DNA from: Rhizobiales bacterium IMCC20636
Lineage (GTDB): Bacteria; Pseudomonadota; Alphaproteobacteria; Rhizobiales; GCA-2746425
Assembly: GCA_016865015.1 (NCBI GenBank)
Contig: CP018226.1
Location: 1,519,001 to 1,583,000 of the forward strand
Direction: 5' to 3'
Length of the DNA stretch: 64,000 nt
Position 1 is the stretch's first letter. Each line of letters opens with the position of its first letter. The notes under the pieces are model-generated. The model worked only from the letters and a program-made list of their open reading frames with translations. It searched no databases and was not told where the DNA came from. This document shows positions 28,365 through 51,229 of this stretch, one piece after another. Both the position numbers and the translations under genes were made by a program.

Positions 28365-29753
28365 ATGGCTTCGATGAAGAACCGTAAAGTGATGTTGGCA
28401 TCCGGGGTTGTGGCGGCGCTACTAGTCGGCTCGGCCGCAGCGAGTGGCATTCCTCAGATAAAGAGCATGTCCCCCGGCTGGGACATGCTTGACGGAAAAG
28501 TGTTGAGTGACAACCTGCAGGGCGGGATGGTGCACAAGGTTCAGCAGCAAAGCCAACAGCAACGCGTGCAATTGCGGATCATCAATACATTGTCTGTCCC
28601 CGTTGATTATTATGTGGTGAATCCAGATACTGGCCAGACTCAGCGGATCAACACTTTGCAACCGGGCGCTGCCGCCGATCTTGGCAGTCAACCTGGACTG
28701 GGCTGGATTTTTGTTCAGAACCAGCAGCAGATACAATCCTATCAGACGCGCGGAGAAGCGTTTCAGGAACTGCGGATTGCAGCTCCCGGGCAGCAGCAGC
28801 CGCCCAGACTGGCGAACCAATATCAGCCGCCGATCAATTCACAGAACGCCCAGCAGCAACAGGCCCCACAGCAGCGGCAGGCCCAGCAACAACAGGCCCA
28901 GCAACAACAGGCCCAGCAACAACAGGCCCAGCAGCAATTGGGTCAATCTGGGGGGCAACCGCAACCACTTGGCCAACCACAAAGACTCGGTCAGGCGCAA
29001 TCAGCGGGTCAGTTACAGAACCAACAAATTGGACAACCGCAACGGTTGCAACAGTATGGACAGCCCGGTCAGCCGCAGCCATCTGGCCAGCAGCAGGGCT
29101 TCGGTCAACCACAGCCTTTGAATCCGCAACAACAATCGGGCCAACAACAGTTTGGCCAACAAGGCGGACAACAACAGCCGCAATATGGGCAATCCCAAGG
29201 ACAGCAGCAACAACAATTTGGTCAACCTCAAGGGCAGCCTTCGGGCCAGCAGCAGCGACTGCCTGTGCCGCCGGGCCTTTATCAAAGTTCCCTGACTCTG
29301 GAAGATTGCTCAGTTTCCTATTTCACGCCCGGAGCGCCGGAAATCGCGATCTGTCAGTATCTCGGCCGATTGGCGAATTCCGACCCCGGTGCCTATCAGA
29401 ACTATCTGGCAGGCATTCAAGTTCGAAACAATCAGTCTGGTGGCATTCAGGGTCAGCAACAACAGCAGGGCTTTGGCACCCAGAATCAAGGCTTTGGCAA
29501 TTCGGGGGGACGTTTTCCCGCGGCTTCATCGTGGGGCGGAATTGTCCGGTCTGCACCTTCCATGCAGTCCGACCGTCTGGACAGTCTTTCGGAAGGTGAA
29601 GTGATTACATTGCTTGCCGATACCGGCGTGCAGATGAATGGCTATAACTGGTTCCAGATTCAGTATCGCAATGGACAAAGCGGTTACCAGTGGGGTGGAA
29701 TCATTTGTGGTCAGACGCAGCCAATCCCTGGCACGTTTGAAATCTGTAATTGA
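28365..29753 (+). CDS. Secreted Gln-rich protein with C-terminal SH3-like domain
   Basis: The 462-residue protein has a signal peptide (RKVMLASGVVAALLVGSAAA), a VHL-beta-like domain (RVQLRIINTLSVPVDYYVV to about residue 140), and a long Gln-rich region (about 155-305) including tandem QQQAQ units encoded by repeated CAACAACAGGCCCAG. A small domain with two cysteines (LEDCSVSYF, IAICQYLG) and a C-terminal SH3-like domain (SWGGIVRSAPSM, GYQWGGIICG) follow. The start at 28365 is preceded by AGGGGA; TTG 28341 and ATG 28350 are alternatives. It is divergent from, and shares a domain with, the gene at 27171. Confidence 0.78.
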   Translation: MASMKNRKVMLASGVVAALLVGSAAASGIPQIKSMSPGWDMLDGKVLSDNLQGGMVHKVQQQSQQQRVQLRIINTLSVPVDYYVVNPDTGQTQRINTLQPGAAADLGSQPGLGWIFVQNQQQIQSYQTRGEAFQELRIAAPGQQQPPRLANQYQPPINSQNAQQQQAPQQRQAQQQQAQQQQAQQQQAQQQLGQSGGQPQPLGQPQRLGQAQSAGQLQNQQIGQPQRLQQYGQPGQPQPSGQQQGFGQPQPLNPQQQSGQQQFGQQGGQQQPQYGQSQGQQQQQFGQPQGQPSGQQQRLPVPPGLYQSSLTLEDCSVSYFTPGAPEIAICQYLGRLANSDPGAYQNYLAGIQVRNNQSGGIQGQQQQQGFGTQNQGFGNSGGRFPAASSWGGIVRSAPSMQSDRLDSLSEGEVITLLADTGVQMNGYNWFQIQYRNGQSGYQWGGIICGQTQPIPGTFEICN

Positions 29754-29787
29754 TGATGTCAGCCCTGCAAATCACAGGATTATCACT

Positions 29788-30699
29788 ATGAAACCCACCT
29801 CAAAAACTGGAACGGCATGGCGGTTTGCGCTGATGGGGGCTTTTGCTCTGATGAGTGGCGCCCAGGCGCAGGCATTGTCGATTTCAATTGCTCCTTCATG
29901 GGTCAATGAAAGTTCATACGGGTCGATTGTTGCGACCGATTGTGCGGCTGGAACCTGCGGCCGCAATATCGAGATTGCCTGCCAGGGAGAGGGGGCTCCG
30001 GCGATTGTTCGGTTGACGGGTCTGGCTTCGGGTAAACGGTTTCCGGTTCTGGAAGCCCCGTTGACGGTTTTGATTGACGGACAGCGCTTTACCAGAACGG
30101 CAACGACGTCTTTCGATCCAGCCTATGGTTTCATTCCACAATTTGTCATGCAGCCGGATGATCCGATGGTGGAGGCTCTGGCAGCGGGACAGTATGCGGA
30201 GTTCATTTTTGCCGAACGGGCTGGCACTGTCGAGTTGAAGGAATCTCGCTGGGCCTTGTCTGTTTTCGTGGCCCATTGCGAATGGCAACAGCCGCAGGCC
30301 AAAGCAGTTCTGAATGTGCTGCAATCGGGAGTGCCAGCCGGAGCTGCCGGGATTTATGACCGCCGCCGCCGGGGCTATGTTCTGGGATGTGCCAACACAC
30401 CTGGCTTGAATGGCCGAACAATGACGCTGGATGCGTCCAATGGGGATGGTGGCCATGTGTCCTTCCGTCTGCCGGAATTTGCCGATAATGGTCGGGAGTT
30501 TTCGCCACCGGTGATGGGAAATCTTGCGCCCTTCGGCGACGTCTTTGTCGATTTGTTCCTGATTGAGGGCGGCATGCCTTCCGACTGGCAGATCACAATG
30601 CGTCCTTCGCCAAATGGCAGCTATGCTCAGGCGGCACAGATGGATCTGGATGTGCCCGATTACGGCACGATCTCCTGTCGTGCAGATGCAATTTTCTGA
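29788..30699 (+). CDS. Secreted hypothetical protein, cysteine-containing beta domain
   Basis: The 303-residue protein has a signal peptide (cleavage near AQA-LS). The mature part holds paired cysteines (VATDCAAGTCGRN and IEIACQG) and a domain ending WALSVFVAHCEW near residue 170, followed by a second domain with VLGCANTPG and ending GTISCRADAIF. The terminal FVAHC motif is shared with the next two genes. It follows the SH3-like gene by 34 bp with AGGAT upstream of ATG, so it belongs to the same operon. Family unknown. Confidence 0.72.
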   Translation: MKPTSKTGTAWRFALMGAFALMSGAQAQALSISIAPSWVNESSYGSIVATDCAAGTCGRNIEIACQGEGAPAIVRLTGLASGKRFPVLEAPLTVLIDGQRFTRTATTSFDPAYGFIPQFVMQPDDPMVEALAAGQYAEFIFAERAGTVELKESRWALSVFVAHCEWQQPQAKAVLNVLQSGVPAGAAGIYDRRRRGYVLGCANTPGLNGRTMTLDASNGDGGHVSFRLPEFADNGREFSPPVMGNLAPFGDVFVDLFLIEGGMPSDWQITMRPSPNGSYAQAAQMDLDVPDYGTISCRADAIF

Positions 30700-30757
30700 T
30701 CTTCTGGATCGTTGGCAGGCTGGAAACGGCTTCCGCTCAAATGATGGACAACACGCT

Positions 30758-31594
30758 ATGAAGACCTTCCTGAAACATTTCATTGTCGGGCTGACTGTTG
30801 CCAGCTTTTGCTGGTCTGGAGCCGCCTTTGCTCAAACTGTGCAGTTTCAACAGGATAAAGTTGTGCTCTACAGTCAGTTTCCGATTACGGGCGTTCGCGT
30901 CAATCAGGAGCTTGTCCGCTTCAATATTCTTGCCGAGAATTCGATCGAAGTCATTCTTCAGGGTGATGAAAACGGTCTGTCTTGCACCAATGAATATGTG
31001 GTGTCGTTCAAGCAGGCGCCTGACGCGCGTTTGCTGGCCAATCATTGTCATGGCGCCGCACGGTTTGAAGTGCAGCCGGGCAGCAATGTGGAGGCGCTGG
31101 AGTATCATGATGGCAATGAAGATGTCGGATTCAACGAGTTGGCGAAAGGTCCGGGGCCACGGGTAAAACCGGTTCAGGACAATTTCGAATGGGGTTTTTC
31201 GGCCTTGCCAGATCCTGTGTTGTCCCTGGCGGTTCCTGAAACGGATAATGTTGTCTGGACGTCGAACTGCCTGCCGGATACGAAACGCATCAAGTCCTAC
31301 GTTCTTATGGTGCCGGAGGGCATTCAAAACGGCGTGACACCGGAGTTGACGTATCAGGTGGATGATCTGGAGCCGGTCAGCTACTCGCTGGGCGTCGAAG
31401 AGTTTCCATTTCTGGAAGGTGGTCCGGTTCCGACGTTGTATACCAATTCAAGCCATTCGCTGTTTTATCTGATGGCAAAGGGACACATAGTCAGCCTTGA
31501 TATGAACCGGCAGCTTCAGGCCAAGTTCTCCCTGCGCGGTTCTGCCAAACCCATTCGGGCGTTTCTGGCTGCCTGCCACAGTCTGGAAGACTGA
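30758..31594 (+). CDS. Secreted hypothetical protein, paralogue-like of neighbours
   Basis: The 278-residue protein has a signal peptide (cleavage near AFA-QT). Cysteines occur in NGLSCTNEYV, ANHCHGAARF, SNCLPDTK and the terminal FLAACHSLED. The C-terminal region (GHIVSLDMNRQLQAKFSLRG) ends in the same F-L-A-x-C pattern as the adjacent genes, which suggests a common beta-sandwich module. ATG 30758 is chosen because the signal peptide begins there. Family unknown. Confidence 0.7.
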   Translation: MKTFLKHFIVGLTVASFCWSGAAFAQTVQFQQDKVVLYSQFPITGVRVNQELVRFNILAENSIEVILQGDENGLSCTNEYVVSFKQAPDARLLANHCHGAARFEVQPGSNVEALEYHDGNEDVGFNELAKGPGPRVKPVQDNFEWGFSALPDPVLSLAVPETDNVVWTSNCLPDTKRIKSYVLMVPEGIQNGVTPELTYQVDDLEPVSYSLGVEEFPFLEGGPVPTLYTNSSHSLFYLMAKGHIVSLDMNRQLQAKFSLRGSAKPIRAFLAACHSLED

Positions 31595-31618
31595 TTTTCT
31601 TCAGGAGTGATACCAATC

Positions 31619-32539
31619 ATGTCACGATTTTCAAAACTCATCACATTGCTCGTTTTGCTGATGGCGACGGCCCTTCCGCTTCACAATTCAGAAGCCAGCA
31701 GCCGGGGTGTTGTGTGGAATTTTTACGCTTCTGCGGACGGTGCTTTGCTGTCGGCGGTATATACGGCTTCGTTTCTGGGCAGCGATGAGGTGACCAGGCG
31801 CGTGCTGATGACGGCCAATTGCAGTCCGGGCCGACCTGTGCCCTATGTCGCGGCGCTGATCAACCCGCCACAGGGACAGCCGATTGAACAACGTGCAGCT
31901 CTGATGGTGCGCTTCGAAAACGGAAACATGCTGTTTCTGGACGGATCACTGGACCGTCTGGCATCGGTCAACGCCGGAGACGACAAGCCTCGATATGGCT
32001 TTGATTTGCCGACAAGTTCTTCGCTCTTTGGTCTGCTGACGCAAAATGGCTCGCGTTATTTTCCCAAAGTGGATGTGGACCCCTGGGGCGGCGGCGTGGC
32101 GCTGGAGATATTTGACCGGGACCGGGACAAGGTGAGAAACTTTCTTGCGACGTGTGACCGGTTTGCACAACAGACCGCTGGTGCCGGTAATAATTACGGG
32201 GCACAGGCCGCTCAACCTCAATTGGGTGCCTGCCGCAGCATGTTGTATGCGCCCAACCCGTGGAATCCATCCCAGCAGGGTGGCCATACACAGGCTATTG
32301 CCAATGAGTTGTGCAGCCCGAATGAGGCTTCTGACCTTCCTGCACGATGCTTCCTGTATATCATGGCGGGCCGTGTCAACTGGGACGCAAATGGCCATCA
32401 GACAAGTTGGATTCCGGGGAACGCTTCCCGGCTTTGCGCCAGAACCCCTGTCGGGCTGGGCACCATTTCCTGTTTTGAGAACCAGATCAGAAACGGTGTT
32501 GCATGGCAGGCTGCTGCGGAGTTTTGCAGACAGAAATAA
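31619..32539 (+). CDS. Secreted cysteine-rich hypothetical protein
   Basis: The 306-residue protein has a signal peptide (LITLLVLLMATALPL, cleavage near SEA-SS). The first domain ends KVRNFLATCDRF near residue 175, the same closing motif as the two upstream genes. A C-terminal domain of about 100 residues has regularly spaced cysteines (GACRSML, NELCSPN, ARCFLYIM, RLCARTP, ISCFENQ, EFCRQK), likely disulfide-bonded. ATG 31619 lies 12 nt after AGGAG; GTG 31607 is an alternative. It is the last gene of the rightward secreted-protein operon. Confidence 0.72.
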   Translation: MSRFSKLITLLVLLMATALPLHNSEASSRGVVWNFYASADGALLSAVYTASFLGSDEVTRRVLMTANCSPGRPVPYVAALINPPQGQPIEQRAALMVRFENGNMLFLDGSLDRLASVNAGDDKPRYGFDLPTSSSLFGLLTQNGSRYFPKVDVDPWGGGVALEIFDRDRDKVRNFLATCDRFAQQTAGAGNNYGAQAAQPQLGACRSMLYAPNPWNPSQQGGHTQAIANELCSPNEASDLPARCFLYIMAGRVNWDANGHQTSWIPGNASRLCARTPVGLGTISCFENQIRNGVAWQAAAEFCRQK

Positions 32540-32671: not shown

Positions 32672-33868
32672 ATGAACCCAATTCAGAATCATAGAGCCAT
32701 GTGGACGCTTGTGCTGTTGCTGGTTGGTGTGATGTCGACCTCTGCAATTGTTCCGTTCATGGGAGTCTATATTGTCGAGGGGCTTGGAAAAGACCCCTGG
32801 ATGATCAGCGTCTATTCAGCCATGTCCTTGTTGGTTGCAGTTTTCGTGAACCGTCGGTTTGGCGAATGGATTGATGCCGGGCGGCGTGTTGCGCCGCTTG
32901 TGCTGGTCTGTATCGTGGCGTTTGTCATTGCCAATTGCTCGATATTGATTGTGCAATCCTACTGGATTTTGGTGAGCGTCGCATTTCTGTGTTTTGGCGT
33001 AGCATCAGCTGCGCTCTCCACCATGTATAGTTTTGGCCGGCTCTATGCAGAGCGCGAAGGGCTGCATATTGAGCGCTATAATTCCTATTTGCGGTCGATG
33101 ACGTCTTTGGGGTGGATGGTGTCTCCGGCTGTTGCATTCTTTGTGGCCGGGCAATTCGGACATCTTGCGGTTTTCAAGTTGGCGTTGGGAATGGCCGCCT
33201 TGTGGGCGGTGTTGTGGTATTTCGTGATGCCTGGGGATTTTGCCGTGGAGCCGCGCGTGACAATTGACGATGCAGGACACGCGATACCAGATGTTCCTAA
33301 CCGACCGCTCTGGTATGCGGCTATTGCGTGTTTCTGTTTTTCGCTGGCGCATATTTTGTGCAGCAGTGCGCTGCCGCTGTTTTACATTCAGGAGGTCGGT
33401 CTGCCGACATTCGCGCCCGGGCTGTCGTTCTCGGTGAAAACCTTTGTGGAAATCATTGCCATTTTAAGTGCGCCGCTTCTGATGTTGCGGCTGGGTGCGC
33501 GCAATCTTCTGCTGGGTGCGGCTGTTCTGGGGCTGTTGGCATTTTGGGTGCTAGCTTCCGTTTCCAGCCTGTCCACGATGATCATGGGGTCTGTTCTGGA
33601 GGGGCTGTATTACGGAATTTTTGCCGGTGTGGGTATCACTTATGTGCAGAGCTTTGCCGCAGGTCGGATGGCCAGGGCGACATCGCTCTATATGAACGGC
33701 CTGTATCTGGGTGGGCTGATTGCATCGTCATCGATGGGATTGATCGCGCATTTTTATGATTTCAGAATGGCCATTCATTTGGCATCATTTGGTGCGATTG
33801 CTGCTTTCCTGGTGCTGTTGGCGACACGACGCAGCGATGTGCCAAAACAACTGACTGTCAGCGGATGA
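32672..33868 (+). CDS. MFS transporter (sugar-efflux SetB-like)
   Basis: The 398-residue carrier has twelve hydrophobic segments. The order of charged loops (RRFGEWIDAGRRVAPLVLV, then YNSYLRSMTSLGWMVSPAVA) recalls sugar-efflux carriers of the Set type. Its stop overlaps the start of the FAD oxidoreductase (ATGA), so it is the first gene of a coupled three-gene operon. The substrate is unknown; no link to the proposed tRNA role of the next two genes is evident. Confidence 0.85.
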   Translation: MNPIQNHRAMWTLVLLLVGVMSTSAIVPFMGVYIVEGLGKDPWMISVYSAMSLLVAVFVNRRFGEWIDAGRRVAPLVLVCIVAFVIANCSILIVQSYWILVSVAFLCFGVASAALSTMYSFGRLYAEREGLHIERYNSYLRSMTSLGWMVSPAVAFFVAGQFGHLAVFKLALGMAALWAVLWYFVMPGDFAVEPRVTIDDAGHAIPDVPNRPLWYAAIACFCFSLAHILCSSALPLFYIQEVGLPTFAPGLSFSVKTFVEIIAILSAPLLMLRLGARNLLLGAAVLGLLAFWVLASVSSLSTMIMGSVLEGLYYGIFAGVGITYVQSFAAGRMARATSLYMNGLYLGGLIASSSMGLIAHFYDFRMAIHLASFGAIAAFLVLLATRRSDVPKQLTVSG

Positions 33869-34926
33869 CAGACTTTGATGTGGTCATTGTCGGGCAGGGG
33901 CTGGCTGGGACAACGCTGGCCTTGCATCTAATTGCGGCCGGTCAGCGCGTGTTGGTGCTGGATGCCGGAACGCCCGTGACAGCCTCAAAGATTGCAGCCG
34001 GATTGATGACGCCGATTACCGGGCAGCGATTGACGTTGAGCTGGCGGGTGGACGAATTTTTGCCCTATGCGCGCGAATTTTATGCGCGGATCGAGCAGGA
34101 AACGGACCGGGCTTTTTGTCATGACCGGATCGCAGTGCGGTTGTTCACCAAGGAGGCTGAGCGTGCAGTCTTTGAGCGGCGACAGGCCGATCCGCAATTC
34201 AGGACACATCTGGCTGACGCGGCTGTCGATGCGGTTTTGCCGGACGATGTTGCGGACACAGAAGGCGGTGGGTTTTCGATGAATGCTGCGCAGCTGGATG
34301 TTGCCGCGTTTCTGGCAGCGGCAAGAGCGTTGCTGACTGTCGAGGAGGCCGCAGTGGACTGGGGTCGGGATGTGGCATTTGGCACGGATTCAGTGACCGT
34401 TCTGGGGCATTCATCCCGTTATCTGGTGTCGTGCGAAGGTTTTGCTGCTGCGGCGAATCCGTATTTTGGCTTTGTGCCGTTCAATGCTGCCAAGGGTGAT
34501 ATTCTGACGCTGCGGTTCAAGAGCCCGGTTCCAGCCTGCAGCCTGCATCGCGGCATGTGGCTGGCCCCGACCGATGACCCATTGGTGTTTCGACTGGGGG
34601 CCAGTTACGATTGGGCGCAACTGGATAATCTGCCGGATGCGGCGGCGGGGGCGATGCTGGAGGAAAAGCTGACAGCGTTTTTTCATGTGCCCTATGACAT
34701 CATAAATCATGAGGCTGCGGTGCGGCCCATTGTGCGGGAAAGCAAGGCTTTGATCGGGTTTCATCCAGCGCATCCGCAATTGGGGTTTTTCAACGCACTG
34801 GGGTCCAAGGGATCGTTGCACGGGCCGTGGTTTGCCCGGCTGTTTTGCGACTGTCTGGTGACTGGAACGCCTGTGCCAGCAGAGTTTGATGTGCAGCAAT
34901 ATGTGACGCCGGGAGATCCGGTCTGA
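33865..34926 (+). CDS. DAO-type FAD-dependent oxidoreductase, possible MnmC(o)/MnmL-like
   Basis: The 353-residue flavoprotein has the dinucleotide-binding motif VVIVGQGLAGTTLALHL and the early signature SKIAAGLMTPITGQRL. It ends with NALGSKGSLHGPWFARLFCD, the GSKG loop typical of the FAD domain of MnmC and its relatives. It overlaps the upstream carrier (ATGA) and the downstream YtqB-like methyltransferase (TGATG). A FAD oxidase coupled to a MnmM-type methylase could perform the two steps done by bifunctional MnmC: cmnm5U to nm5U, then mnm5U. A generic amino-acid oxidase remains possible. Confidence 0.75.
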   Translation: MTDFDVVIVGQGLAGTTLALHLIAAGQRVLVLDAGTPVTASKIAAGLMTPITGQRLTLSWRVDEFLPYAREFYARIEQETDRAFCHDRIAVRLFTKEAERAVFERRQADPQFRTHLADAAVDAVLPDDVADTEGGGFSMNAAQLDVAAFLAAARALLTVEEAAVDWGRDVAFGTDSVTVLGHSSRYLVSCEGFAAAANPYFGFVPFNAAKGDILTLRFKSPVPACSLHRGMWLAPTDDPLVFRLGASYDWAQLDNLPDAAAGAMLEEKLTAFFHVPYDIINHEAAVRPIVRESKALIGFHPAHPQLGFFNALGSKGSLHGPWFARLFCDCLVTGTPVPAEFDVQQYVTPGDPV

Positions 34927-35480
34927 TGCTGCGGGCGACAGATATGGCGCAGTTGTTGCTGACGCAAAGGCTCAAAACCGGCGATGTGGTTGTGGATGCC
35001 ACAGTCGGGAACGGGCATGACATTTTGTTTCTGGCAGATCAGGTGGGGCCGTCCGGTTGCGTGATTGGTTTTGATGTTCAACAGGCTGCGCTGGATCAGG
35101 CCGCAGCTCTGCTGGGGGGACGCTCCAATGTTCGGCTTGTCCATGCCGGGCATGAAAGGCTGGCAGAGCATCTGGCGGACGAGCATGTTCGTTTGGCTGC
35201 GGTGATGTTCAATCTGGGCTATCTGCCGGGGGCCGACAAAACCGTTACGACCGGTGCGGCAACAACTTTGGCAGCCTTGCAGCAGGCATTGGCGCTGCTG
35301 GGGATTGGCGGTGTGGTGACACTTGTACTCTATCCAGGCCATCCCGGCGGCGCGGAAGAGGCGCGGGCCGTTCTAGCCTTTTTGGAAAGTCTGGACAATG
35401 ATTTTGCCGTGAGCCGCTATCACAGGGTGAATGCGGTCAAGCCAGCGCCGGAATTGCTTGTGGTGGAGCGAAAGCGTTAA
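34926..35480 (+). CDS. mnmM: Class I SAM methyltransferase, YtqB/MnmM-like
   Basis: The 184-residue Rossmann methyltransferase has motif I VVDATVGNGHDILFLA, an acidic GFDVQQAALDQA loop, the motif NLGYLPGADKTVTT and the C-terminal VNAVKPAPELLVVERKR. This set matches the YtqB (rRNA methylase-like) family. YtqB of Bacillus was shown to be MnmM, which methylates nm5(s2)U34 in tRNA. Its start overlaps the stop of the FAD oxidoreductase, which supports a joint pathway. I am confident in the family and less so in the substrate. Confidence 0.8.
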   Translation: MLRATDMAQLLLTQRLKTGDVVVDATVGNGHDILFLADQVGPSGCVIGFDVQQAALDQAAALLGGRSNVRLVHAGHERLAEHLADEHVRLAAVMFNLGYLPGADKTVTTGAATTLAALQQALALLGIGGVVTLVLYPGHPGGAEEARAVLAFLESLDNDFAVSRYHRVNAVKPAPELLVVERKR

Positions 35481-37013: not shown

Positions 37014-37424
37014 TCAATGGTCGGCATCGCACAAATTATGATCTGCAAGGGATTCTATCACGGCGCAATTGGCGACGCTGTCTGCGCGGCAGGCCGAAAT
37101 ACGTTTCAGCTCACGTTCCAGGCGTCGCAGTTTGGCAATCCGTGAGCGAACCTCATTGAGGTTCCTGGCTGCAATGATGTCTGCATTTTTGCAGGGCTTT
37201 TCCGGATGTCCGTGCAGGTCCAGCAACCCTTTGATGTCTTCGATGGAAAATCCCAGTTCACGAGAATGTCGGATAAAGGAAAGCTGTTTGAAACCGTCTT
37301 TTGTGTAGCGTCTCTGATTGCCGTCAGACCGTTCTGGCGCATCAATCAAGCCCATTTGTTCATAGTAACGAATGGTGGGGATTTTAACGCCGGTCCGCTT
37401 TGATAATTCGCCAATTGAAAACAT
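37014..37424 (-). CDS. MerR-family heavy-metal-responsive regulator
   Basis: The 136-residue protein has the MerR winged helix (FSIGELSKRTGVKIPTIRYY), a dimerisation helix, and a C-terminal cysteine set: KPCKNAD near residue 78, ISACRADSVANC near 110-121 and a final HNLCDADH. This resembles the Cd/Pb/Zn sensors CadR, PbrR and ZntR. It is divergent from a CDF-like transporter with a classic MerR promoter between them. The pair is inserted between phage TerS and TerL. Confidence 0.9.
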   Translation of the reverse strand: MFSIGELSKRTGVKIPTIRYYEQMGLIDAPERSDGNQRRYTKDGFKQLSFIRHSRELGFSIEDIKGLLDLHGHPEKPCKNADIIAARNLNEVRSRIAKLRRLERELKRISACRADSVANCAVIESLADHNLCDADH

Positions 37425-37436
37425 TCAAATACCCTC

Positions 37437-37467
37437 TTGAACCTCTAGCCACTAGAGGAATTATATG
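37437..37467 (+). promoter_or_regulatory. MerR-type promoter/operator of the CDF transporter
   Basis: A -35 box TTGAAC (37437-37442) and a -10 box TATATG (37462-37467) are separated by 19 bp, the long spacer that MerR regulators untwist. A perfect dyad CCTCTAG-N3-CTAGAGG (37442-37458) lies in the spacer. Confidence 0.9.
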
Positions 37468-37497
37468 TTGTGCATTCGATTATGCAAGGAATGCGAC

Positions 37498-38202
37498 ATG
37501 ACAAAAGACGCCGTCTTGAAAGCACCGGTCAACACTACTGAAATCAAAGGGTGCGGATGCTCGGGCAATCCCAAATTTGACGGTGTGGACCCAGCCTATA
37601 AGCGCGTCCTCTGGTTGGTGATTGTCATCAATGCCGCGATGTTCATTGTTGAAATGTCGGCGGGAAAGCTGGCTGGCTCGCAAGCGCTGCAGGCTGATGC
37701 GCTGGACTTTTTGGGCGATGCGGTGACTTACGGGTTGAGCCTTGCGGTGATCGGCATGAGCCTGAAGATACGATCCACCGCCGCCTTGCTGAAGGGGTTC
37801 AGCCTGATGTTGATGGGGCTCTGGGTTTTTGGCTCGACTGTGTATCAGATCTTCATTCTTGGCGTGCCGAGAGCCGAGATCATGGGATTTATCGGCCTGC
37901 TGGCTCTTGCAGCCAATCTGGCCAGTGTGTTGCTTTTGATGCGCTACAAAGATGGCGATGCGAATGTCCGCTCCGTCTGGCTGTGTTCGCGAAACGACGC
38001 AATCGGAAACGTGGCCGTGATGGTGGCCAGTGTTGCGGTGTGGCTGACTATGTCGGCTTGGCCTGACCTCATTGTGGCCATCATCATGGCTGGCCTGTTC
38101 CTGCGCTCAGCCCAACTCATTCTTGTTCAGGCCTGGCAGGAATATCGCTTGGATGAGGCGGTGGGTGTTGTGGAAAGCCATGGGCGCGATGGTGCGTGTT
38201 GA
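37498..38202 (+). CDS. CDF-like cation transporter
   Basis: The 234-residue protein has a cysteine-bearing N-terminus (IKGCGCSGNPKFD) that may bind metal, then six membrane segments. ALQADALDFLGDAVTYGLSL and WLCSRNDAIGNVAVMVAS carry the acidic residues that form the CDF transport site. CDF carriers export Zn, Cd or Co from the cytoplasm by proton exchange. AAGGA stands 7 nt before the ATG. The short C-terminus lacks the usual cytoplasmic domain. Control by the adjacent MerR regulator is strongly implied. Confidence 0.88.
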   Translation: MTKDAVLKAPVNTTEIKGCGCSGNPKFDGVDPAYKRVLWLVIVINAAMFIVEMSAGKLAGSQALQADALDFLGDAVTYGLSLAVIGMSLKIRSTAALLKGFSLMLMGLWVFGSTVYQIFILGVPRAEIMGFIGLLALAANLASVLLLMRYKDGDANVRSVWLCSRNDAIGNVAVMVASVAVWLTMSAWPDLIVAIIMAGLFLRSAQLILVQAWQEYRLDEAVGVVESHGRDGAC

Positions 38203-38913: not shown

Positions 38914-39473
38914 CTTTATTCTTGAACCAGAGCCCAAGTTAGTGAGTTTAGAGATCTATTCGCAAGTGTTGCTCATATCAAAAATTTTTAGATAGACGAA
39001 AAACAAAAAGGTTTTCACACTCTTTTTGCAACATCTAAATCAAGGGAATATCAGGATGAGGAAAACTGTTGAGAAAACCTTCGTATTTATAACGCCATTC
39101 AGGGCTATCTGAATTTTTTTCAGGCTTGAAAACATAGAATACCAGCCATTTTGCAGCCCAACACAACAGATGTTTGCCTTTTCTATGGAGTATTTGGGTA
39201 TGGGAAGTAGGCCATCACAACAAAGTAAATGAGCCCCGCTTGTTATTTTCCCGCGCCCTGCTGATGGTAAACACGACGGTCGTTTTGTGGCAATCGCATC
39301 TGCCGTCTGCTCATGCAGTATATCGGTGGTTAAAAGACAACGAAGTTCTTTGTCTACAACATGCTATCGCGAGACTACAGCAAACGGTCTTGATTTAAGA
39401 CATGCGGGTGTAAAGAAGATTGAGCGCAACAGTACTGCCAGCGTGAATGGGACCGATTATTCCAGGACCTCCG
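38914..39473. other. AT-rich region between cargo genes and TerL, with a terminase-like remnant
   Basis: No intact gene is seen in these 560 bp. CTTTTTGCAAC at 39022-39032 repeats 38251-38261. Near 39291-39398 one frame reads LPSAHAVYRWLKDNE and then HAIARLQQT, which resembles the helix-turn-helix of another class of terminase small subunit but without start or flanks. It may be a degraded TerS. Confidence 0.4.
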
Positions 39474-39950
39474 ATGACTGAAATCACGCTGCCGCATGAT
39501 TGGACGCCGCGGTTTTATCAGATTCCGGTGATGGCATATCTGGATGGGGGCGGGACGCGGGCGATGTCGTTGTGGCATCGGCGGGCGGGGAAGGATTCTG
39601 CCGGGTTGAATTATGCGGCCAAGGAAATGTTTCGCCGGCCCGGTGTGTACTGGCATTTGCTGCCGTCGCAGCGGCAAGCGCGCAAGGTGGTTTGGAACAA
39701 TGTCGACCGGCAGGGGCGGCGGATGATTGATCAGGCGTTTCCGGAAGCCTTGCGGGTGCGCAAGCTGAGCGATGAAATGCTGATCGAGTTCAAAAACGGC
39801 TCGGTCTGGCAGTTGGCGGGCGCCGATAATTATGATGCGCTGGTGGGGGCCAATCCGGTGGGGGTGGTGTTTTCCGAATGGGCGCTGACCAATCCGCAAT
39901 CGTGGGATTTCATTCGTCCGATCCTGATGGAAAATGGCGGCTGGGCCTAG
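39474..39950 (+). pseudogene. Terminase large subunit, ATPase part, cut by in-frame TAG
   Basis: The N-terminal 158 residues of a phage packaging motor: adenine-binding RFYQIPVMAY, Walker A SLWHRRAGKDSAG and Walker B VGVVFSEWAL. ATG 39474 follows AGGA at 7 nt. TAG at 39948-39950 ends the frame inside the conserved segment that reads GGWA-stop-FNTTPRGRNHA, just before the ATP-coupling motif. The frame continues without shift into the nuclease part. The fragment alone lacks the coupling motif and nuclease, so packaging should fail unless the stop is suppressed. Confidence 0.85.
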
Positions 39951-40802
39951 TTCAACACCACGCCGCGCGGGCGCAACCATGCGTTTCAGATGGCGGTGAT
40001 GGCACAGAAGAACCCGGCCTGGTATTTTGAACGTTTGACGGTGGAAGACACGAGGGTGCTGAACGCAGAGCATATTCAGGAAGAGCGGCTGTCGGGCATG
40101 TCTGAGGACAAGATTCAGCAGGAATATTACTGCTCGTTTGAAGCCGCCGAAGCGGTGCAGTTCATCACCTATGAGCATTTGCAGCAGGCGCTTGAGCGGG
40201 TGATGGAGGATCCGCAACGGCCGGTGATTTTTGGTCTGGATGTGGCCCGCTTTGGCGATGACCGCTCGGCGCTGGCGATGCGCCATGGCGACAAGTTGAT
40301 GAACATCATCACCTGGCAGGGGCTGGACACGATGCAAACTGCTTCGAAAGTGGCGGAGATTGCCGACCGAGCGCGCCCGGACCGGATTTTCGTGGATGGG
40401 GTGGGCGTTGGCGGCGGCGTGGTGGACCGTTTGCGGCAACTGGGTTTGCGGGCGGTGGATGTGAATGCCGGTGGCCGGGCGACAGACCAGGCGCGCTATT
40501 ACAACAAGCGCGCCGAATGCTGGGGCCGGATGCGTGACTGGCTGAAGGACAGGGGCGCGATTGCGGCCAATGCCGAGCTGGAGTTTGATTTGCTCGGCCC
40601 TGAATACAGTTATGACGCGAACAACCGCATTCAGCTTGAGAAGAAGGATGACATGAAGAAACGCGGCATTCCGTCGCCAGATCTGGGGGACGCGCTGGCA
40701 CTGACTTTTGCCGAGCGGGTTTCTCCGATGATGGCTTCATTGGCTGATCAGGCGGACCAGAATTCGCATGTGGTTCTGACTGACCCGCTGGGCGGGTTCT
40801 GA
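39951..40802 (+). pseudogene. Terminase large subunit, nuclease part after in-frame TAG
   Basis: The 283 codons after the TAG continue the TerL protein: FNTTPRGRNHAFQM, then the RNase H-like nuclease with acidic residues in IFGLDVARFGDDRSALAM, RIFVDGVGVGGGVVDRL and SPDLGDALALTF. The first ATG (39990) has no ribosome site, so separate translation is unlikely. All nuclease motifs remain intact, which suggests the stop is recent. With the upstream part the protein would be 442 residues, normal for this type. Confidence 0.85.
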
Positions 40803-40820
40803 GATTTTACAGGAAACGAT

Positions 40821-41489
40821 ATGGCAAGATTACCGGATTATCGCGCGCAGCGGGGACTGGATATTGGCTCAGCGCAGAAGCTTTCTGCTGACCGCTCGCG
40901 GCTGCAGCGGTTTGAACAGCTTGGTGGTGCTGTTGAAGAGGCCGGACAAGGTGCGATGCAGATCGCGAAACGCAATGCGGCGTTGCAGAGCAGCCAGGAC
41001 AAAACGGAAGCCCTCGAGAAACATCAACAGTTTCATGATCTCCTGCAACAGGGTCTGGATGCGGTTGCAAATGATGTGCCTGCAAATGGCAAGGGGCTTT
41101 TCCAGCACTTCATGAGCGATGTGTTTGAGGCGCAGGCGCGCACATTTCTGGATGATATTCCTGAGAGTCAGCAGGCATTGTTTGCCGAGCGGGTGGCCCA
41201 GGATGAAGAACTGTTTGCAGACAGAGCAGCGATGCGTGAGCGCGATCAGGGCTATGAATATGGGGCAGAAATGTTGGCAAACAGCCGCGCGCTGATGCTG
41301 GATTCTGTTGTGCCGGACAGTCTTGATGCGCATCTGCAGCGGTTTCTGGAGGTGGCAGAAGCTGCCCCATTGCCTGCAAATCTGCGCGCACAGATGGTTG
41401 ATGAGGGGACGCAGATTGCGCGGTTCAAAGCTGTGCGCAATGGGTTGATGGGCGGCGGGATAACCGACTTTGGATCGGTGTTGGTTTAG
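40821..41489 (+). pseudogene. Phage virion-associated protein, N-terminal part, ends at in-frame TAG
   Basis: A 222-residue, mostly helical protein with AGGAAA before its ATG. It begins ARLPDYRAQRGLDIGSAQKL and has long charged helices (ERVAQDEELFADRAAMRERD) in the manner of podophage internal or injected proteins. TAG 41487-41489 is followed by an in-frame open stretch of 311 codons with no ribosome site of its own, so the two parts probably once formed a 534-residue protein. I do not recognise the exact family. Confidence 0.65.
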
Positions 41490-42425
41490 GCCGAAACTGC
41501 CGGGCACATGTTTGAGAAATTTGAGAGGCTGGTTGTGGGAACAAATACTGAAACAGTGTCTGAGACAGTGCCAATTCGGCGTCCGCGACCGAAGCTGAAT
41601 CCGGTTGCAGAGGGGATTTTGACCGATATGTCTGATGAGGAACGGTTGATCCTTGCGGCGGAGATGGCCGGGTTCGACGGGCGCAGGCAGACGGAGACGG
41701 CAGAAGCCTTGCGCAAGGCGCGCTTTGATGTGCAACGAAGCATGGCGCTGGATCTGGAAGACATCAAAGCCGGGCGGCTTTCGACGGTCTGGACAGAGTA
41801 TGGATACCCCAAGCCGGTGCGCGATGTGCTTGGGGACGCGGCCTATCAGAGCTTTGTGGATGACCGGCTGGAAGCGGGCATGATTTCACATGCAACAGCT
41901 GGCCTGCATTTGATGCAGGATGATACGTTGCAGCGCATTGCTGATGGTTCAACAATGCCTGAAGCGCCGCATGAGAAGCTTGCCGAGTTGATGACGCCCA
42001 AGGTGCTGGCGGCCACGGCAGAGCGTGCCAAAGCAATATTGGAGATGCGCCGAACCAATCCGTCCGACTCTGTGTTGCTGTCTGCTGATTTAAGCCAGCG
42101 CAAAGCCCGGTTTGATGCAGCCTTTGAGGCTGGTGAGGCCGTTGATCCTGACGAAATGGATGCATTTCTGTTTTACCACGAAGCAGCACAACGGGAGCTC
42201 GGGATTGCAGAGACGGCCATCGAGATGCTCCCGACCAGTTGGGCGCGGCAGGTGGCAGATTGGTTTGACTCGCTGCCGGCTGACAATGGCACGCTGACTG
42301 ATCGACGGATGCGTGAGGCGGAGCTGAAACAGCTTTATGACGCGCTGCAAGACAGGTTTGGGCCGCGCACGGACGCCGTGATTGCCTATAGTCTGGCATG
42401 GGCAGACGAGGCTTCGGCAGGCTGA
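41490..42425 (+). pseudogene. Phage virion-associated protein, C-terminal part after TAG
   Basis: In-frame continuation of the preceding gene: 311 codons to TGA, helical and acidic throughout (MSDEERLILAAEMAGFDG, AELMTPKVLAATAERAKAIL, MREAELKQLYDALQDRFGP). The first internal ATG is 41508, preceded by GCCGGGCAC without a Shine-Dalgarno. It could be made separately from 41508, but interruption of one gene by an amber codon explains the layout better. Function is probably structural or DNA-ejection related, by position between TerL and portal. Confidence 0.6.
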
Positions 42426-42476
42426 ACTTCGGACCGGCACCAACTTCAAATTTTCCGGATATTGAAAGGGGAATTC

Positions 42477-42566
42477 ATGTTTCATGACACGAATTTGGCT
42501 GTTCTGTCGGCTGTTGCATGTGCGCTGGCGCTGGCCGCGGTGATTGCGTTTGCCCCGCCGATTTGA
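42477..42566 (+). CDS. 29-residue phage membrane peptide
   Basis: A tiny frame with a strong AAAGGGG ribosome site 6 nt before ATG. After FHDTN it is one hydrophobic helix (LAVLSAVACALALAAVIAFA) ending PPI. TGA 42564-42566 is followed one base later by the GTG of the next gene. The strong initiation signal makes it credible; the role is unknown, perhaps membrane-associated assembly or lysis timing. Confidence 0.6.
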   Translation: MFHDTNLAVLSAVACALALAAVIAFAPPI

Positions 42567-42567
42567 G

Positions 42568-43143
42568 GTGGGACCAGCCAATGTGCGCGATGTTTCTTAT
42601 ATTGCAGGCCAACTGAGATCGGCCGACCAGCGGGAAGTTTTCTGCCAGTTGCCGGCCGATGTCAGCACCGGGGACATTGGCCATATCTGCACCCGGCCGG
42701 GAACCAGTTTTGTCGCCTATTGGAAAGGCCGACCGGTGATGGTGTTTGGCTTTGATGCCATTACCCTAGCCGGGAATGCGCTGAATGCCTGGGCGTTTGG
42801 CACAAGGGACAGCTGTTACATCATGGGCGATCTGACCCGATGGGTGGTCGATACGCTGTTGCCGGACTGGCTCAGCAATGGCGTCACGCGCATCGAGGCG
42901 CGCTCCATCGCCAGCCACAGCACCGCGCATCGTTGGCTGAAAACCATTGGCGCGGTGGAAGAGGGGCCACTGACCGGCCTTGGCCGGGATGGCGAGGATT
43001 TCATTTTATTTGCATGGCACCGCAACCGGCTGGAGCAGACGCTTCGGCTGGTGGGCCGATTTACGGAGACTTTCAAAGATGTGCATGTCGAAACCGAAAA
43101 TTGCGAAACCAAAACCGTTGCCAACCGCACCAAGGCGCGATGA
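42568..43143 (+). CDS. GNAT-like phage internal virion protein
   Basis: A 191-residue protein with an acetyltransferase-like fold: VRDVSYIAGQLRSADQREVF at the start, FVAYWKGRPVMVFGFD in the core strands, and IEARSIASHSTAHRWLKTIG with EEGPLTGLGRDGEDFILFAW at the end. T7 gp13-type internal proteins and phage GNAT proteins share this layout. GTG 42568 is chosen because it lies one base after the upstream stop; TTG 42544 would add eight residues. Confidence 0.65.
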   Translation: MGPANVRDVSYIAGQLRSADQREVFCQLPADVSTGDIGHICTRPGTSFVAYWKGRPVMVFGFDAITLAGNALNAWAFGTRDSCYIMGDLTRWVVDTLLPDWLSNGVTRIEARSIASHSTAHRWLKTIGAVEEGPLTGLGRDGEDFILFAWHRNRLEQTLRLVGRFTETFKDVHVETENCETKTVANRTKAR

Positions 43144-43285
43144 AGAGGCCTCTCTGGTTCAGGATGCGCGCCGCCGTGCACGCAATGCAAGAGGCGTTGC
43201 CGGATCGGTGTTTACATCTGCGCTTGGGGATGTCGATTTTGGCCAGAATGTAAGCCGCGCGACACTGCTGGGACAGAGCGCCTAG
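43079..43285 (+). CDS. Small phage protein preceding portal
   Basis: A 68-residue basic protein (SKPKIAKPKPLPTAPRRDEE, RRRARNARGVAGSV, ending SRATLLGQSA). Short proteins with the same proline/lysine start and TLLG end are regularly encoded just before the portal gene of alphaproteobacterial podoviruses. ATG 43079 has GGAG 10 nt upstream and lies inside the GNAT gene. TAG is immediately followed by the portal ATG, a genuine terminal amber. Confidence 0.7.
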   Translation: MCMSKPKIAKPKPLPTAPRRDEEASLVQDARRRARNARGVAGSVFTSALGDVDFGQNVSRATLLGQSA

Positions 43286-45004
43286 ATGGGGGTGGTGGAA
43301 GACCTGCTGGACAGGCAGGCCGCCCTGGCCAAGGAGCGCTCCCAATGGGAGCAGCATTGGCTGGATGTTGCCAATTATGCATTGCCGAATGTGGATCGGT
43401 TCGACCGGATGTTCAACTCTGGTGCAGGCCAGCTAGACAGTTGGGCAAGTGGCCCCAATGGAGCTGATCGGGCACGCTCGATCTACGATACTACCAGCCT
43501 TTGGGCGGTGGATCGGGGTGTTGCGGGCTTTATGTCCTTGATTACACCGCAATCGGAAAACTGGCATGGCATCGCCAGTGCCGAGGTGATGAGCGATGAT
43601 GTGGATCATGCCACCGAGGTATGGTCGGACCGGTTCGCCAATTATCTGCACAAGATGCGCAACAACCCGCAGACCGGATTCTGGGTGGCCCACAAATCTG
43701 CCCTGCGCGCCATGTGGGCGCTGGGCACCGGCATCCAGTTTGTCAGCGAGAATTTGCAACGCGGTGCCGATGCGCCGATGTCCTATCGCTATGTGCAATT
43801 GTCAGAGAGTTATCTGGCAACCAATTATGAAGGGGTGGTCGATACCAATTTCCGCTGCTTCACCAAAACGGCGGCGCAATGTGTGGCCAAATGGGGTGCG
43901 CGCTGCTCGGCGGACGTGCGGGCCAAGGCAGCAGATGCGAAAACCCGCGACCAGATGGTTGAACTGGTGCATGCGGTTTTGCCACGGGCCGAACGTGGCT
44001 CTGGCCTCAATACCAGACGCAATGCGGCCTGGGCGGAGTTTTATCTTGAGCGGCGCAGCAAGCATGTGCTGCATGAGGGCGGCTACAATGCCTTTCCCTA
44101 TGTGGTCTATCACTGGAACCAGATGGGCCATCAAGCCTATTCGGAAGGGCCGATGGCGTTGGCTTTGGCCGAGGTGAAAAGCCTGAATGCGTTGTCAAAG
44201 GATGCGTTGATGGCCTCGCAGCAGGCGGTCAACCCGCCAACGGCCAGCATTGATGACGGGTTTGGACGGGTGAATTTGAACCCCGGCAAGAACAATCCTG
44301 GCCTGATGTCCCCGGAAGGACGGCTGCTGGTGCAGCCAATCGTGACTGCGCCGCGTCCGGACTTTGCCGAAAGCATTTTGAACATCAAGCGCGAGCAGAT
44401 CAAAGAAAGTCTCTATGTGAATCTGTGGCAGTTGCTGATGAACTCGCCTGGCATGACAGCCACGGAAGCGCTGATCCGTGCCGAGGAAAAAGGCCAGTTG
44501 TTGGGGCCTGCAGCGGCGTCGCTTTACACCGGCATTGCCCGTCTGGTGGATGTGGAAACTCAATATCTGGCAGACCGGGGTGCGTTTGAGCCGGATCAGC
44601 TGCTGGCACTGCCGGATGCGTTGCAGGGAAAGGACATTGCCGTGCAGATGGACACGCCTCTGGACCGGATGCGACGTTCTGGCGAGGTCACTGGCATGCA
44701 ACGCACGCTGGAGTTTGGCGCAAGCATTGCGCAACTCAAGCAGGATCCGAAAATTCTGGAGAAATTCAACGCCGACACAATGCTGGATACAGCACGCAAA
44801 GTGTTTGGTGCGCCCGCCGCTATGTTCAAAACCGAAGAGGAACTGGAAAGTGCCCGTGATGAGGTGGCACAGATGGAGCAGATGATGCAGGCCATGCAGT
44901 TGGCACAAGCAGGCGGCGCTGCCGCCAAAGCTGTGGGTGAGGGCGCGCGGGCGATTGAAGGATCGCCGACGCTGGCAGCCATGGCTGCGGGATCGCAGGA
45001 ATAA
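43286..45004 (+). CDS. Portal protein (T7-like head-tail connector)
   Basis: The 572-residue protein has the podovirus portal layout: LAKERSQWEQHWLDVANYAL and PNVDRF at the start, SIYDTTSLWAVDRGVAGFMS, a middle basic domain, and NPPTASIDDGFGRVNLNPGK before the C-terminal helical barrel, ending in a Gln/Met-rich MEQMMQAMQLAQ segment. Portals form the dodecameric ring through which DNA passes. It starts directly after the previous stop. The gene appears intact. Confidence 0.9.
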   Translation: MGVVEDLLDRQAALAKERSQWEQHWLDVANYALPNVDRFDRMFNSGAGQLDSWASGPNGADRARSIYDTTSLWAVDRGVAGFMSLITPQSENWHGIASAEVMSDDVDHATEVWSDRFANYLHKMRNNPQTGFWVAHKSALRAMWALGTGIQFVSENLQRGADAPMSYRYVQLSESYLATNYEGVVDTNFRCFTKTAAQCVAKWGARCSADVRAKAADAKTRDQMVELVHAVLPRAERGSGLNTRRNAAWAEFYLERRSKHVLHEGGYNAFPYVVYHWNQMGHQAYSEGPMALALAEVKSLNALSKDALMASQQAVNPPTASIDDGFGRVNLNPGKNNPGLMSPEGRLLVQPIVTAPRPDFAESILNIKREQIKESLYVNLWQLLMNSPGMTATEALIRAEEKGQLLGPAAASLYTGIARLVDVETQYLADRGAFEPDQLLALPDALQGKDIAVQMDTPLDRMRRSGEVTGMQRTLEFGASIAQLKQDPKILEKFNADTMLDTARKVFGAPAAMFKTEEELESARDEVAQMEQMMQAMQLAQAGGAAAKAVGEGARAIEGSPTLAAMAAGSQE

Positions 45005-45009
45005 TCAAG

Positions 45010-45342
45010 ATGATCAAACTCCGAGGGCTGTTTGCACGCGGCCTGCGCAGAAGCGCGGCTGCGCGGCTGTTGCTGGCCGGTGCGTATAGGCGTGTGCTGG
45101 TGACGGGCCATGCCTCCCAGCAGGACCGGGATCTGGTGCTGGCCGATCTGGCCAATCAAACCGGATATTACCGTGTTTCGACGGCAGAGACGCCGGATGC
45201 GGATTTGAGATTTGCAGAGGGCAAGAGGTTCGTGATGGCACGCATTCTCCACCATCTGCGGATGCCTCGTGAACTTCAGCAACAGCTGGAGGACGCGGCA
45301 CGGCAGGAGCAACTCACCAACACAGAAGAGGGTGAAATATGA
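45010..45342 (+). CDS. Bbp19-like phage protein
   Basis: The 110-residue protein matches the Bbp19 domain pattern: a basic leader, then VLADLANQTGYYRVS, and ADLRFAEGKRFVMARILHHL, as found after portal genes in BPP-1-like and related podoviruses. Function is unknown, probably head assembly. It lies between portal and scaffold, and its stop overlaps the next start (ATATGATG). Confidence 0.75.
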   Translation: MIKLRGLFARGLRRSAAARLLLAGAYRRVLVTGHASQQDRDLVLADLANQTGYYRVSTAETPDADLRFAEGKRFVMARILHHLRMPRELQQQLEDAARQEQLTNTEEGEI

Positions 45343-46223
45343 TGGACGAAACAGCTTCCGGTGCTGCCGGGCAGGGCGCTTCTCCAAACAGCATGGGCGG
45401 TGACAACGGATCTGCGACCGCTGCGATTGCTGCAAATCCTTTCGACGGTCTTCAGGCAGAAGGCAGCCGTGACTGGATTGAAAAAGCAGGAGTGAAAGAT
45501 GTTGAAAGCCTTGTGAAAATGGCACGCAATTCCGAACGTTTGATCGGGAAATCGTTCCAGAAACCGGGGCCGGAGGCAACGCAAAGTGAAATGGACGCAT
45601 TTTATCAGCGTCTGGGCCGTCCAACGGAGGTGTCGGGCTACGAACTGACACCGCCTGAGGACATGCCGGAAGATCTGCCATATGACACGGAATTTGCAGG
45701 AAAATTTGCAGAAACCGCGCATAAATTTGGCATGTCTGCTGAACAGGCCAAGGGTCTTCATGATTTCTATGTTCATGAGATGGTCGGCGGCTATCAGGCC
45801 GGTCTGGATGGCCATGTTGCCCAGTTGGAAGAGCGCACCAGTGCTGCCACAAGCCAGCTTGAAAAAGACTGGGGTGCGCAGCAGGGAACGCCGAAATTCA
45901 ATGAGCAGGTGACCCTGGCAGACAGGGCCATTCGTGAGTTGGGTGGAGACACGCTTCTGGACGGGTTTGAAGCGGCCGGCATGATTGGGCCGCAGGGCAT
46001 TATTCTCAATCCGGCCATTGCCAAGGCGATGGCCAATGTGGGGCGAGAATTGTTTGGCTCATCTGGCGGGCTGGCAATGGGTGGCAGCAGTTCTGCCGAC
46101 AACCCGTTTGCCAAGGACAGCCAGAATCTCACTCAGCAATCTGAACTTCAGCGCAATGATCCAAGACGCGCAAGGTCTCTCATTTTGGCGGCGGGCCGAG
46201 ATCCGTCCAATTGGGGCCTTTGA
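45339..46223 (+). CDS. Phage scaffolding-type protein
   Basis: The 294-residue acidic, helical protein has IEKAGVKDVESLVKMARNSE and YELTPPEDMPEDLPYDTEF, followed by FGMSAEQAKGLHDFYVHEM and a helix pair. This is the usual sequence style of capsid scaffolding proteins in podophages with Bbp19. The position between Bbp19 and major capsid protein agrees. The N-terminal 40 residues are glycine/alanine/serine-rich and likely disordered. Confidence 0.75.
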   Translation: MMDETASGAAGQGASPNSMGGDNGSATAAIAANPFDGLQAEGSRDWIEKAGVKDVESLVKMARNSERLIGKSFQKPGPEATQSEMDAFYQRLGRPTEVSGYELTPPEDMPEDLPYDTEFAGKFAETAHKFGMSAEQAKGLHDFYVHEMVGGYQAGLDGHVAQLEERTSAATSQLEKDWGAQQGTPKFNEQVTLADRAIRELGGDTLLDGFEAAGMIGPQGIILNPAIAKAMANVGRELFGSSGGLAMGGSSSADNPFAKDSQNLTQQSELQRNDPRRARSLILAAGRDPSNWGL

Positions 46224-46243
46224 TTCAAGGAAAGTCGTTACTT

Positions 46244-47269: not shown

Positions 47270-47332
47270 CGTCCGGATCGTATGGCCAACTGGTTGCGAA
47301 AAATATCCGGCATTGACCAAACCGGACCAGAT

Positions 47333-47361
47333 GGGGTCGGCAGTTTGCCGGCCCCTTTTTT
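47333..47361 (+). terminator. Rho-independent terminator after capsid gene
   Basis: GGGGTCGGCA (47333-47342) pairs with TGCCGGCCCC (47346-47355) with one G-T wobble and a 3-nt loop, followed by six T's. Confidence 0.85.
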
Positions 47362-47376
47362 ATTGGAGTTTTGAAA

Positions 47377-47619: not shown

Positions 47620-47622
47620 GTC

Positions 47623-51112: not shown

Positions 51113-51196
51113 TTCAGCGATTTACGTTTAAGTTTGCCTGCGTTCGGTGAGGGCTGCACCTTACCGGCCAAATCAAAATCACCCGAACTGACAGCT

Positions 51197-51216
51197 GCCG
51201 CAAGGCGGCTTTTTTT
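51197..51216 (+). terminator. Rho-independent terminator after internal virion protein gene
   Basis: GCCGC (51197-51201) and GCGGC (51205-51209) with a 3-nt loop, followed by seven T's. The stem is short, so termination may be partial before the fibre gene. Confidence 0.7.
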
Positions 51217-51229
51217 ATGGAAACACACA

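Follow-up and report, generated by a model that had tools for sequence, protein, structure and literature searches.

Within a 64,000-nucleotide stretch of Rhizobiales bacterium IMCC20636 (contig CP018226.1, positions 1,519,001 to 1,583,000; hereafter the window), a gene for a DAO-fold oxidase that uses flavin adenine dinucleotide (FAD) is followed directly by a gene for the methyltransferase MnmM (YtqB). We propose, with a probability of about 0.83, that the two proteins together substitute functionally for MnmC, with the tasks of this bifunctional enzyme split between them. MnmE-MnmG would place a carboxymethylaminomethyl group on C5 of the wobble uridine, yielding 5-carboxymethylaminomethyluridine (cmnm5U). 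The DAO-fold flavoprotein would then oxidize the N-substituted glycine of cmnm5(s2)U34, leaving the 5-aminomethyl form, nm5(s2)U34, and the carboxymethyl part would be released as glyoxylate, by analogy with MnmC. Finally, MnmM would methylate nm5U with S-adenosylmethionine (SAM) to give 5-methylaminomethyluridine (mnm5U). Of this scheme, we infer what the oxidase acts on and what it forms, the sequence in which the steps occur and that MnmM is active in this organism.

The gene pair and its host genome

The pair comprises the following features:

33865-34926, + strand: DAO-fold FAD oxidase gene, 353 amino acids (aa), ATG start
34926-35480, + strand: MnmM (YtqB) methyltransferase gene, 184 aa, ATG start
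34924-34928, + strand: stop/start overlap of the oxidase and MnmM genes, TGATG, with one base common to both

In the sequence, the TGA of the oxidase gene occupies 34924-34926 and the ATG of the MnmM gene 34926-34928, and this tight overlap probably couples the translation of the two genes. The initial annotation had described a DAO-type flavoprotein with a GSKG loop that overlaps a YtqB/MnmM-like methylase by one base, and profile searches agreed. The oxidase matched Pfam DAO with 91.8 bits (cut-off 27.9), and the open reading frame (ORF) at 34926-35480 matched the NCBIfam model of MnmM, NF053511, with 190.9 bits (cut-off 135) and Pfam PF06962 with 134.1 bits (cut-off 22.7). The best solved relatives of the latter protein are the YtqB-type structures 8h0s, 4pon and 8h1a. 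By family, its identity as MnmM is thus nearly certain, and it is predicted to methylate nm5(s2)U34 of tRNA in this organism. In extracts of PMC9976899, changes at D34, N101, Y104, K110, Y141 and H144 of Bacillus subtilis MnmM nearly abolish activity; all six residues are kept in 6/6 alphaproteobacterial MnmM rows.

The genome that holds the window (G000) is a single contig of 4,790,321 bases, rated 100% complete, in which MnmM is present once. The absence of mnmC and the presence of mnmE and mnmG, on which the initial annotation depended, were both seen at the model cut-offs. The latter two genes lie side by side at 125518-128755 and score 262.5 bits (mnmE) and 814.3 bits (mnmG), both over cut-off. 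For the methyltransferase domain of MnmC, MnmC(m) (PF05430), the best score in this genome was 12.2 bits, under the cut-off of 22. For the oxidase domain, MnmC(o) (TIGR03197), which was searched in the window genome only, the best of 59 FAD-protein matches (E<=1) scored 64.6 bits against a cut-off of 174.2. A complete mnmC elsewhere in this genome was therefore rejected, as nothing rose over cut-off. The radical-SAM family TIGR01212 gave no match in it at E<=1e-6.

Conservation of the pair

The conservation of the gene pair expected at the outset was seen both among the relatives with full-length MnmM (6/6) and across Pseudomonadota (36 of 398 genomes). Among 385 genomes of the class, only the window genome had MnmM over the NF053511 cut-off; 225 matched MnmM at E<=0.001, the others listed being short matches. 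Among 61 nearer relatives, the window genome included, full-length MnmM was found in six, four in the genus and two in other families (a 62-residue match in G417 was left out, so that the count is 6/61 and not 7/61). The oxidase, which in these 61 genomes was looked for only beside MnmM, is directly upstream of it in all six. The other five upstream oxidases are 54-81% identical to that of the window, the one at locus L021 being 80% identical. In four genus members (the window, G385 with loci L021/L058, L057 and L059) a transporter gene of the major facilitator superfamily (MFS) lies upstream of the pair. This place is taken by an amidase gene in G425 and by an EamA transporter gene in G408, and the pair is thus kept while its neighbours change. 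Because it recurs in the five other full-length-MnmM genomes among the 61 relatives and in another proteobacterial family, the pair is real and goes beyond chance.

Whole-genome searches for MnmM covered samples of Pseudomonadota. MnmM was found in 38/398 genomes at E<=1e-15 (37 over cut-off), and the oxidase, searched with a profile of its own alignment (A1), also in 38/398 at E<=1e-30, the best five candidates being scored in most of the 398 genomes. The two occur together in 36 genomes, namely the window genome and 35 genomes of one family, f231. The oxidase alone was seen in two genomes, in both of which it lies beside a contig end, and MnmM alone in two others, the MnmM of G628 being a fragment where a contig begins and G528 being a true exception. 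A Fisher test on this co-occurrence is not readable as a probability, the genomes being mostly of one family. With respect to layout, the genes are adjacent in 23 of the 36 (<150 bases between matches), fused in six, separated by 696-1239 bases in six and on different contigs in one. In genus g377 of f231, another gene was observed between the oxidase and MnmM genes (L145:572-1612, L146:5531-6619), and the one in L146 encodes a cyclic-nucleotide-binding domain.

In the six fused cases (G472, G478, G496, G550, G620 and G649, all in f231), a single open frame of ~550-580 residues holds the oxidase domain first and then MnmM over cut-off. That the oxidase occurs naturally joined to the enzyme of the following step argues strongly for a common pathway. 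The MnmM tree has 39 rows, which besides the order and f231 include three Bacilli rows and G528; a Neisseria gonorrhoeae record (L092) was left out on account of its interrupted MnmM frame. In this tree, the order and f231 share a single MnmM clade (99/96), and two changes are required to account for the fused label. Two separate fusions would be the simplest reading of the tree, though not a certain one, and the second fusion row (G496, L135) is a long branch. A structure model of the fused protein was poor (predicted local distance difference test score, pLDDT, 51.1; five rows) and was not used.

Of the 43 MnmM genomes found, several are incomplete drafts, and 37 were re-searched for PF05430 and TIGR01212. 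The former was found in 0/37 and the latter, over cut-off, in 2/37, leaving 35/37 with neither. At E<=1e-6, TIGR01212 matched in 22 of 38 genomes (two over cut-off), the 38th being G388, a genome without MnmM in which neither family was found. This family does not mark MnmL cleanly, because it was over cut-off in 6/14 control genomes. A TIGR01212-like stretch in another locus, L097 (G507:C53:1328-1846, 58.7 bits), carries eight in-frame TGA codons; it may stem from a contaminant in which TGA encodes a residue, or be a gene in decay.

Outside these sets, a related-locus search of a genome collection returned one true relative (L021), the four short matches at the FAD motif in L022-L025 being set aside, and the oxidase had no match in the plasmid collection at E<=1e-10. 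For at least 20 order members, the phylum sample gave no match to the oxidase at E<=1e-30. We considered whether MnmM and MnmC(m) exclude each other in the order and rejected this as evidence: six and 13 of the 61 relatives have the one or the other and none both, for which the chance probability is 0.22. Neither is present in 42/61.

Identity of the oxidase and alternative explanations

Alignment A1 has 28 rows; L083, a near-copy of L082, was left out, as were L086, L088, L089 and L091, in which the oxidase match is partial. Three elements of the oxidase can be placed in the window:

33892-33909, + strand: FAD-binding glycine motif GQGLAG, residues 10-15, from A1 conservation
34723-34725, + strand: Arg287, aligned with E. 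coli MnmC Arg567, R in 28/28 rows
34801-34812, + strand: GSKG loop, residues 313-316, GSRG in E. coli MnmC

G10, G12, L13 and A14 are invariant (28/28), and G15 is found in at least 90% of the rows; G10 and G12 align to G271 and G273 of E. coli MnmC. Arg567 is listed for FAD binding and is >98% conserved in bifunctional MnmC (extracts of PMC3648344). Residues 309-317 of the window oxidase, FNALGSKGS (family consensus FNGFGSKGS), align with AALGSRGL of E. coli MnmC; G313 and S314 are invariant, and K315 and G316 are kept in at least 90% of the 28 rows. The same source gives eight oxidase-domain positions as >98% conserved in MnmC (G271, G273, G287, G518, R567, G578, G619 and R653; PMC3648344, extracts). 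In an alignment of this family with MnmC, seven of the eight are matched in the window oxidase; most of them serve FAD binding, are general to the fold and do not discriminate.

An AlphaFold model of the oxidase (pLDDT 91.0, predicted template modelling score 0.91) was compared with solved structures. VIA-align gave Z values of 36.7 for glycine oxidase, 36.1 for CmiS2, 33.4 for iminodiacetate oxidase and 33.0 for E. coli MnmC; the Foldseek list was similar, and the fold matches include sarcosine oxidase. Many of these enzymes take their names from glycine or N-substituted glycines, and a group of the latter kind is present in cmnm5U (extracts of PMC3648344). Judged from the model, a common fold does not fix the substrate of the oxidase.

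Several observations weigh against the proposed replacement of MnmC, and we consider first those that concern the oxidase. Its best NCBIfam match is TIGR03197 (MnmC_Cterm), at 54.4 bits vs a cut-off of 174.2. By profile, glycine oxidases outscore MnmC (70.8 vs 54.4 bits), and its fold match is likewise better to glycine oxidase than to MnmC. MnmC Arg653 has no aligned partner in it, and its conserved residues are mostly general FAD-binding ones of the fold. In the DAO tree, the oxidases form their own clade (94/99) and two MnmC(o) rows stand apart on a long branch, their join being unsure (joins of the outgroup were flagged as long-branch meetings). Other points concern distribution. The 36 co-occurrences come mostly from one family, f231, and are not independent, and in G520 the two genes are unlinked. 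The single-contig genome G528 has MnmM and no match to the oxidase (E<=1e-30), MnmC(m) or TIGR01212, and MnmM can therefore exist without the oxidase. Two f231 genomes, G688 (L095) and G615 (L096), have TIGR01212 at 386.8 and 385.9 bits beside the oxidase-MnmM pair, which possibly reflects two parallel routes or a separate role of TIGR01212. G388, a draft of the same genus as the window genome, has no MnmM match. As for MnmM itself, Y104 is replaced by Trp in 6/29 and K110 by His in 3/29 f231 rows, and the window protein has Gln at position 11 (Q in three and H in three alphaproteobacterial rows). In B. subtilis, K11E nearly abolished activity and Lys11 contacts U33 (extracts of PMC9976899). 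Position 11 varies in Bacilli too, with H or R in three rows, and Lys11 was therefore not counted as family-defining.

The protein upstream of MnmM in G528 (L063) resembles that of the N. gonorrhoeae record L092, in which, as noted, the MnmM frame is interrupted.

We weighed three other explanations against these data. The first concerns descent only and not function: the oxidase might descend from an ancestral MnmC as a true but diverged MnmC(o), after the two halves had separated and MnmM had taken the place of the methyltransferase. Weak similarity extends over most of the domain, and E. coli MnmC has the loop too, as GSRG in place of GSKG, followed by a similar sequence. We nevertheless regard such a descent as doubtful, given the separate clade of the oxidases, a score far below the equivalog cut-off and an alphaproteobacterial MnmC, in locus L129, without GSRG. 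Because GSRG is missing in that MnmC, the clade stands apart and the branches are long, the oxidase is taken as MnmC(o)-like in its proposed function and is not filed as a predicted member of MnmC(o). Thus, of the split MnmC for conversion of cmnm5U to mnm5U that was suggested originally, the MnmM equivalog, mnmE and mnmG, the lack of MnmC and the conserved pair held up, whereas the oxidase falls under the MnmC(o) cut-off and its step is one that we infer.

Second, the flavoprotein might be a ThiO glycine oxidase or another small-amine oxidase of thiamine or amino-acid metabolism that stands beside MnmM without functional reason. Its best profile and fold matches are indeed glycine oxidases, and 28/28 family members match the ThiO model TIGR02352 at E<=0.001, with a best E-value in the family of 2.1e-35 vs 2.1e-29 for MnmC(o). 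However, the window oxidase itself reaches 44.0 bits on the ThiO model, far from its cut-off of 250.8 and below its own MnmC(o) score, no thiamine-synthesis family matched among the six neighbouring proteins scanned, and, unlike ThiO, the oxidase is conserved with MnmM. The near-perfect co-occurrence with MnmM, the fusion and the retention of the pair amid changing neighbours speak against a bystander amine oxidase, and we consider this explanation very improbable.

Finally, it seems very improbable that MnmM uses nm5U made directly by MnmE-MnmG with ammonium, a reaction described as possible in extracts of PMC9976899 and PMC3648344 and compatible with the situation in G528, while the oxidase acts elsewhere in tRNA modification, e.g., on a different wobble intermediate, as the partner has a glycine-type amine oxidase fold, with a chemistry fit to strip the carboxymethyl group of cmnm5U, and some genomes have it joined in one frame to the enzyme that follows on the cmnm5U route.

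Comparison with known systems

The identities of the two genes, their conserved pairing, their fusion and the presence of mnmE and mnmG, all established here by computation, allow a comparison of the proposed replacement with other systems. E. coli MnmC carries out FAD-dependent oxidation of cmnm5U followed by SAM-dependent methylation of nm5U, the two activities also proposed for the window pair, and the oxidase fold is common to both (Z 33.0). The methyltransferase of MnmC is MnmC(m) of PF05430, whereas here it is MnmM, the functions are divided between two genes and the oxidase lies under the TIGR03197 cut-off. Moreover, MnmC has MnmC(m) at the N-terminus and MnmC(o) at the C-terminus, and the f231 fusions have the reversed order, with the oxidase first.

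In Bacilli, MnmM likewise comes second in a closely spaced pair of genes, but the partner there is a radical-SAM protein of TIGR01212 and not a DAO flavoprotein. By annotation, such a gene lies directly upstream of MnmM in 3/3 Bacilli records (Listeria, Anoxybacillus and Enterococcus). We take this neighbour to be the MnmL of Jaroch et al. 2024. A 2025 review lists MnmL for nm5s2U, citing that work (PMC12548931, extracts). The initial annotation had contrasted the pair with a Bacillus pathway of MnmM and an unlinked FAD enzyme; this part found no support, as the three records, none of them from Bacillus itself, show a linked radical-SAM gene. YurR, which we had first considered as the Bacillus partner, was dropped: a literature search offered nothing relevant and the Bacilli records show the radical-SAM neighbour. 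The description of the pair as an alphaproteobacterial version of the pathway also proved too narrow. It is found there, but most examples are in another family of Pseudomonadota, and six of them are fused.

A further comparison is offered by the stand-alone MnmC(m) (PF05430, MnmC2) of the order, which is also a split arrangement. PF05430 occurs in 13 places of the order, of which five were fetched (L129-L133). L129 is a fused alphaproteobacterial MnmC. In L130-L133, a DAO oxidase gene lies beside MnmC(m), the two running divergently on opposite strands:

L130:518-2482, divergent MnmC(m)/DAO pair
L131:1751-3630, divergent MnmC(m)/DAO pair
L132:2208-4107, divergent MnmC(m)/DAO pair
L133:2502-4464, divergent MnmC(m)/DAO pair

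This arrangement is perhaps another split version of MnmC. It differs from the window pair in its methyltransferase family, and the oxidases of L131-L133, which score 189.5, 122.7 and 118.9 bits on the ThiO model (under cut-off), are outside the clade of the window oxidase.

It is likely that Pseudomonadota have a third route from cmnm5U to mnm5U, in which a separate clade of the glycine-oxidase fold has teamed up with MnmM and, apparently twice, fused with it, re-inventing the two activities of MnmC with a different methyltransferase and in the reverse domain order. The 2023 MnmM paper states that the oxidase in MnmM organisms is unknown (extracts of PMC9976899). The pair provides a concrete candidate for the MnmC(o) step in some Pseudomonadota, unlike the radical-SAM neighbour in Bacilli. 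With the fused forms, the pathway can be tested through one gene, and their existence points to the same two-step enzyme having evolved convergently. It should also be noted that the absence of mnmC in a proteobacterium need not mean the absence of mnm5U. Our literature searches on MnmM, MnmC, MnmL and YtqB, which covered extracts of the papers, returned no report of the oxidase-MnmM pair among the entries listed.

Part of the pair and fusion finding may be known already; the abstract of Jaroch et al. 2024 reportedly mentions fusion proteins and alternate arrangements.

Other features of the window

Immediately upstream of the pair lies one further gene:

32672-33868, + strand: MFS transporter gene, sugar-efflux-like, Pfam MFS_1 78.5 bits

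Its end overlaps the start of the oxidase gene by four bases (ATGA), such that the MFS, oxidase and MnmM genes are packed head to tail. The transporter is probably not part of the tRNA-modification pathway. Three consecutive ORFs (29638-32539) precede it; no Pfam or NCBIfam model matched the one at 31607-32539, of which just residues 260-310 have a counterpart in L021.

Downstream, a MerR-type metal regulator gene (- strand) adjoins a cation-efflux gene (+ strand) at 37014-38202, beside a prophage-like region at 39447-52603. In this region, a head-tail connector at 43286-45004 scores 271.1 bits, a capsid match at 46211-47269 stays below its cut-off, and 51134-52603 carries the N-terminal domain of a T7 tail fibre. 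Neither of the pieces 39447-39950 and 39990-40802 matches Pfam; they belong to an interrupted gene, which we take to be terminase-like. The interruption is an in-frame stop, and the relative L021 has a single 442-aa frame at this place.

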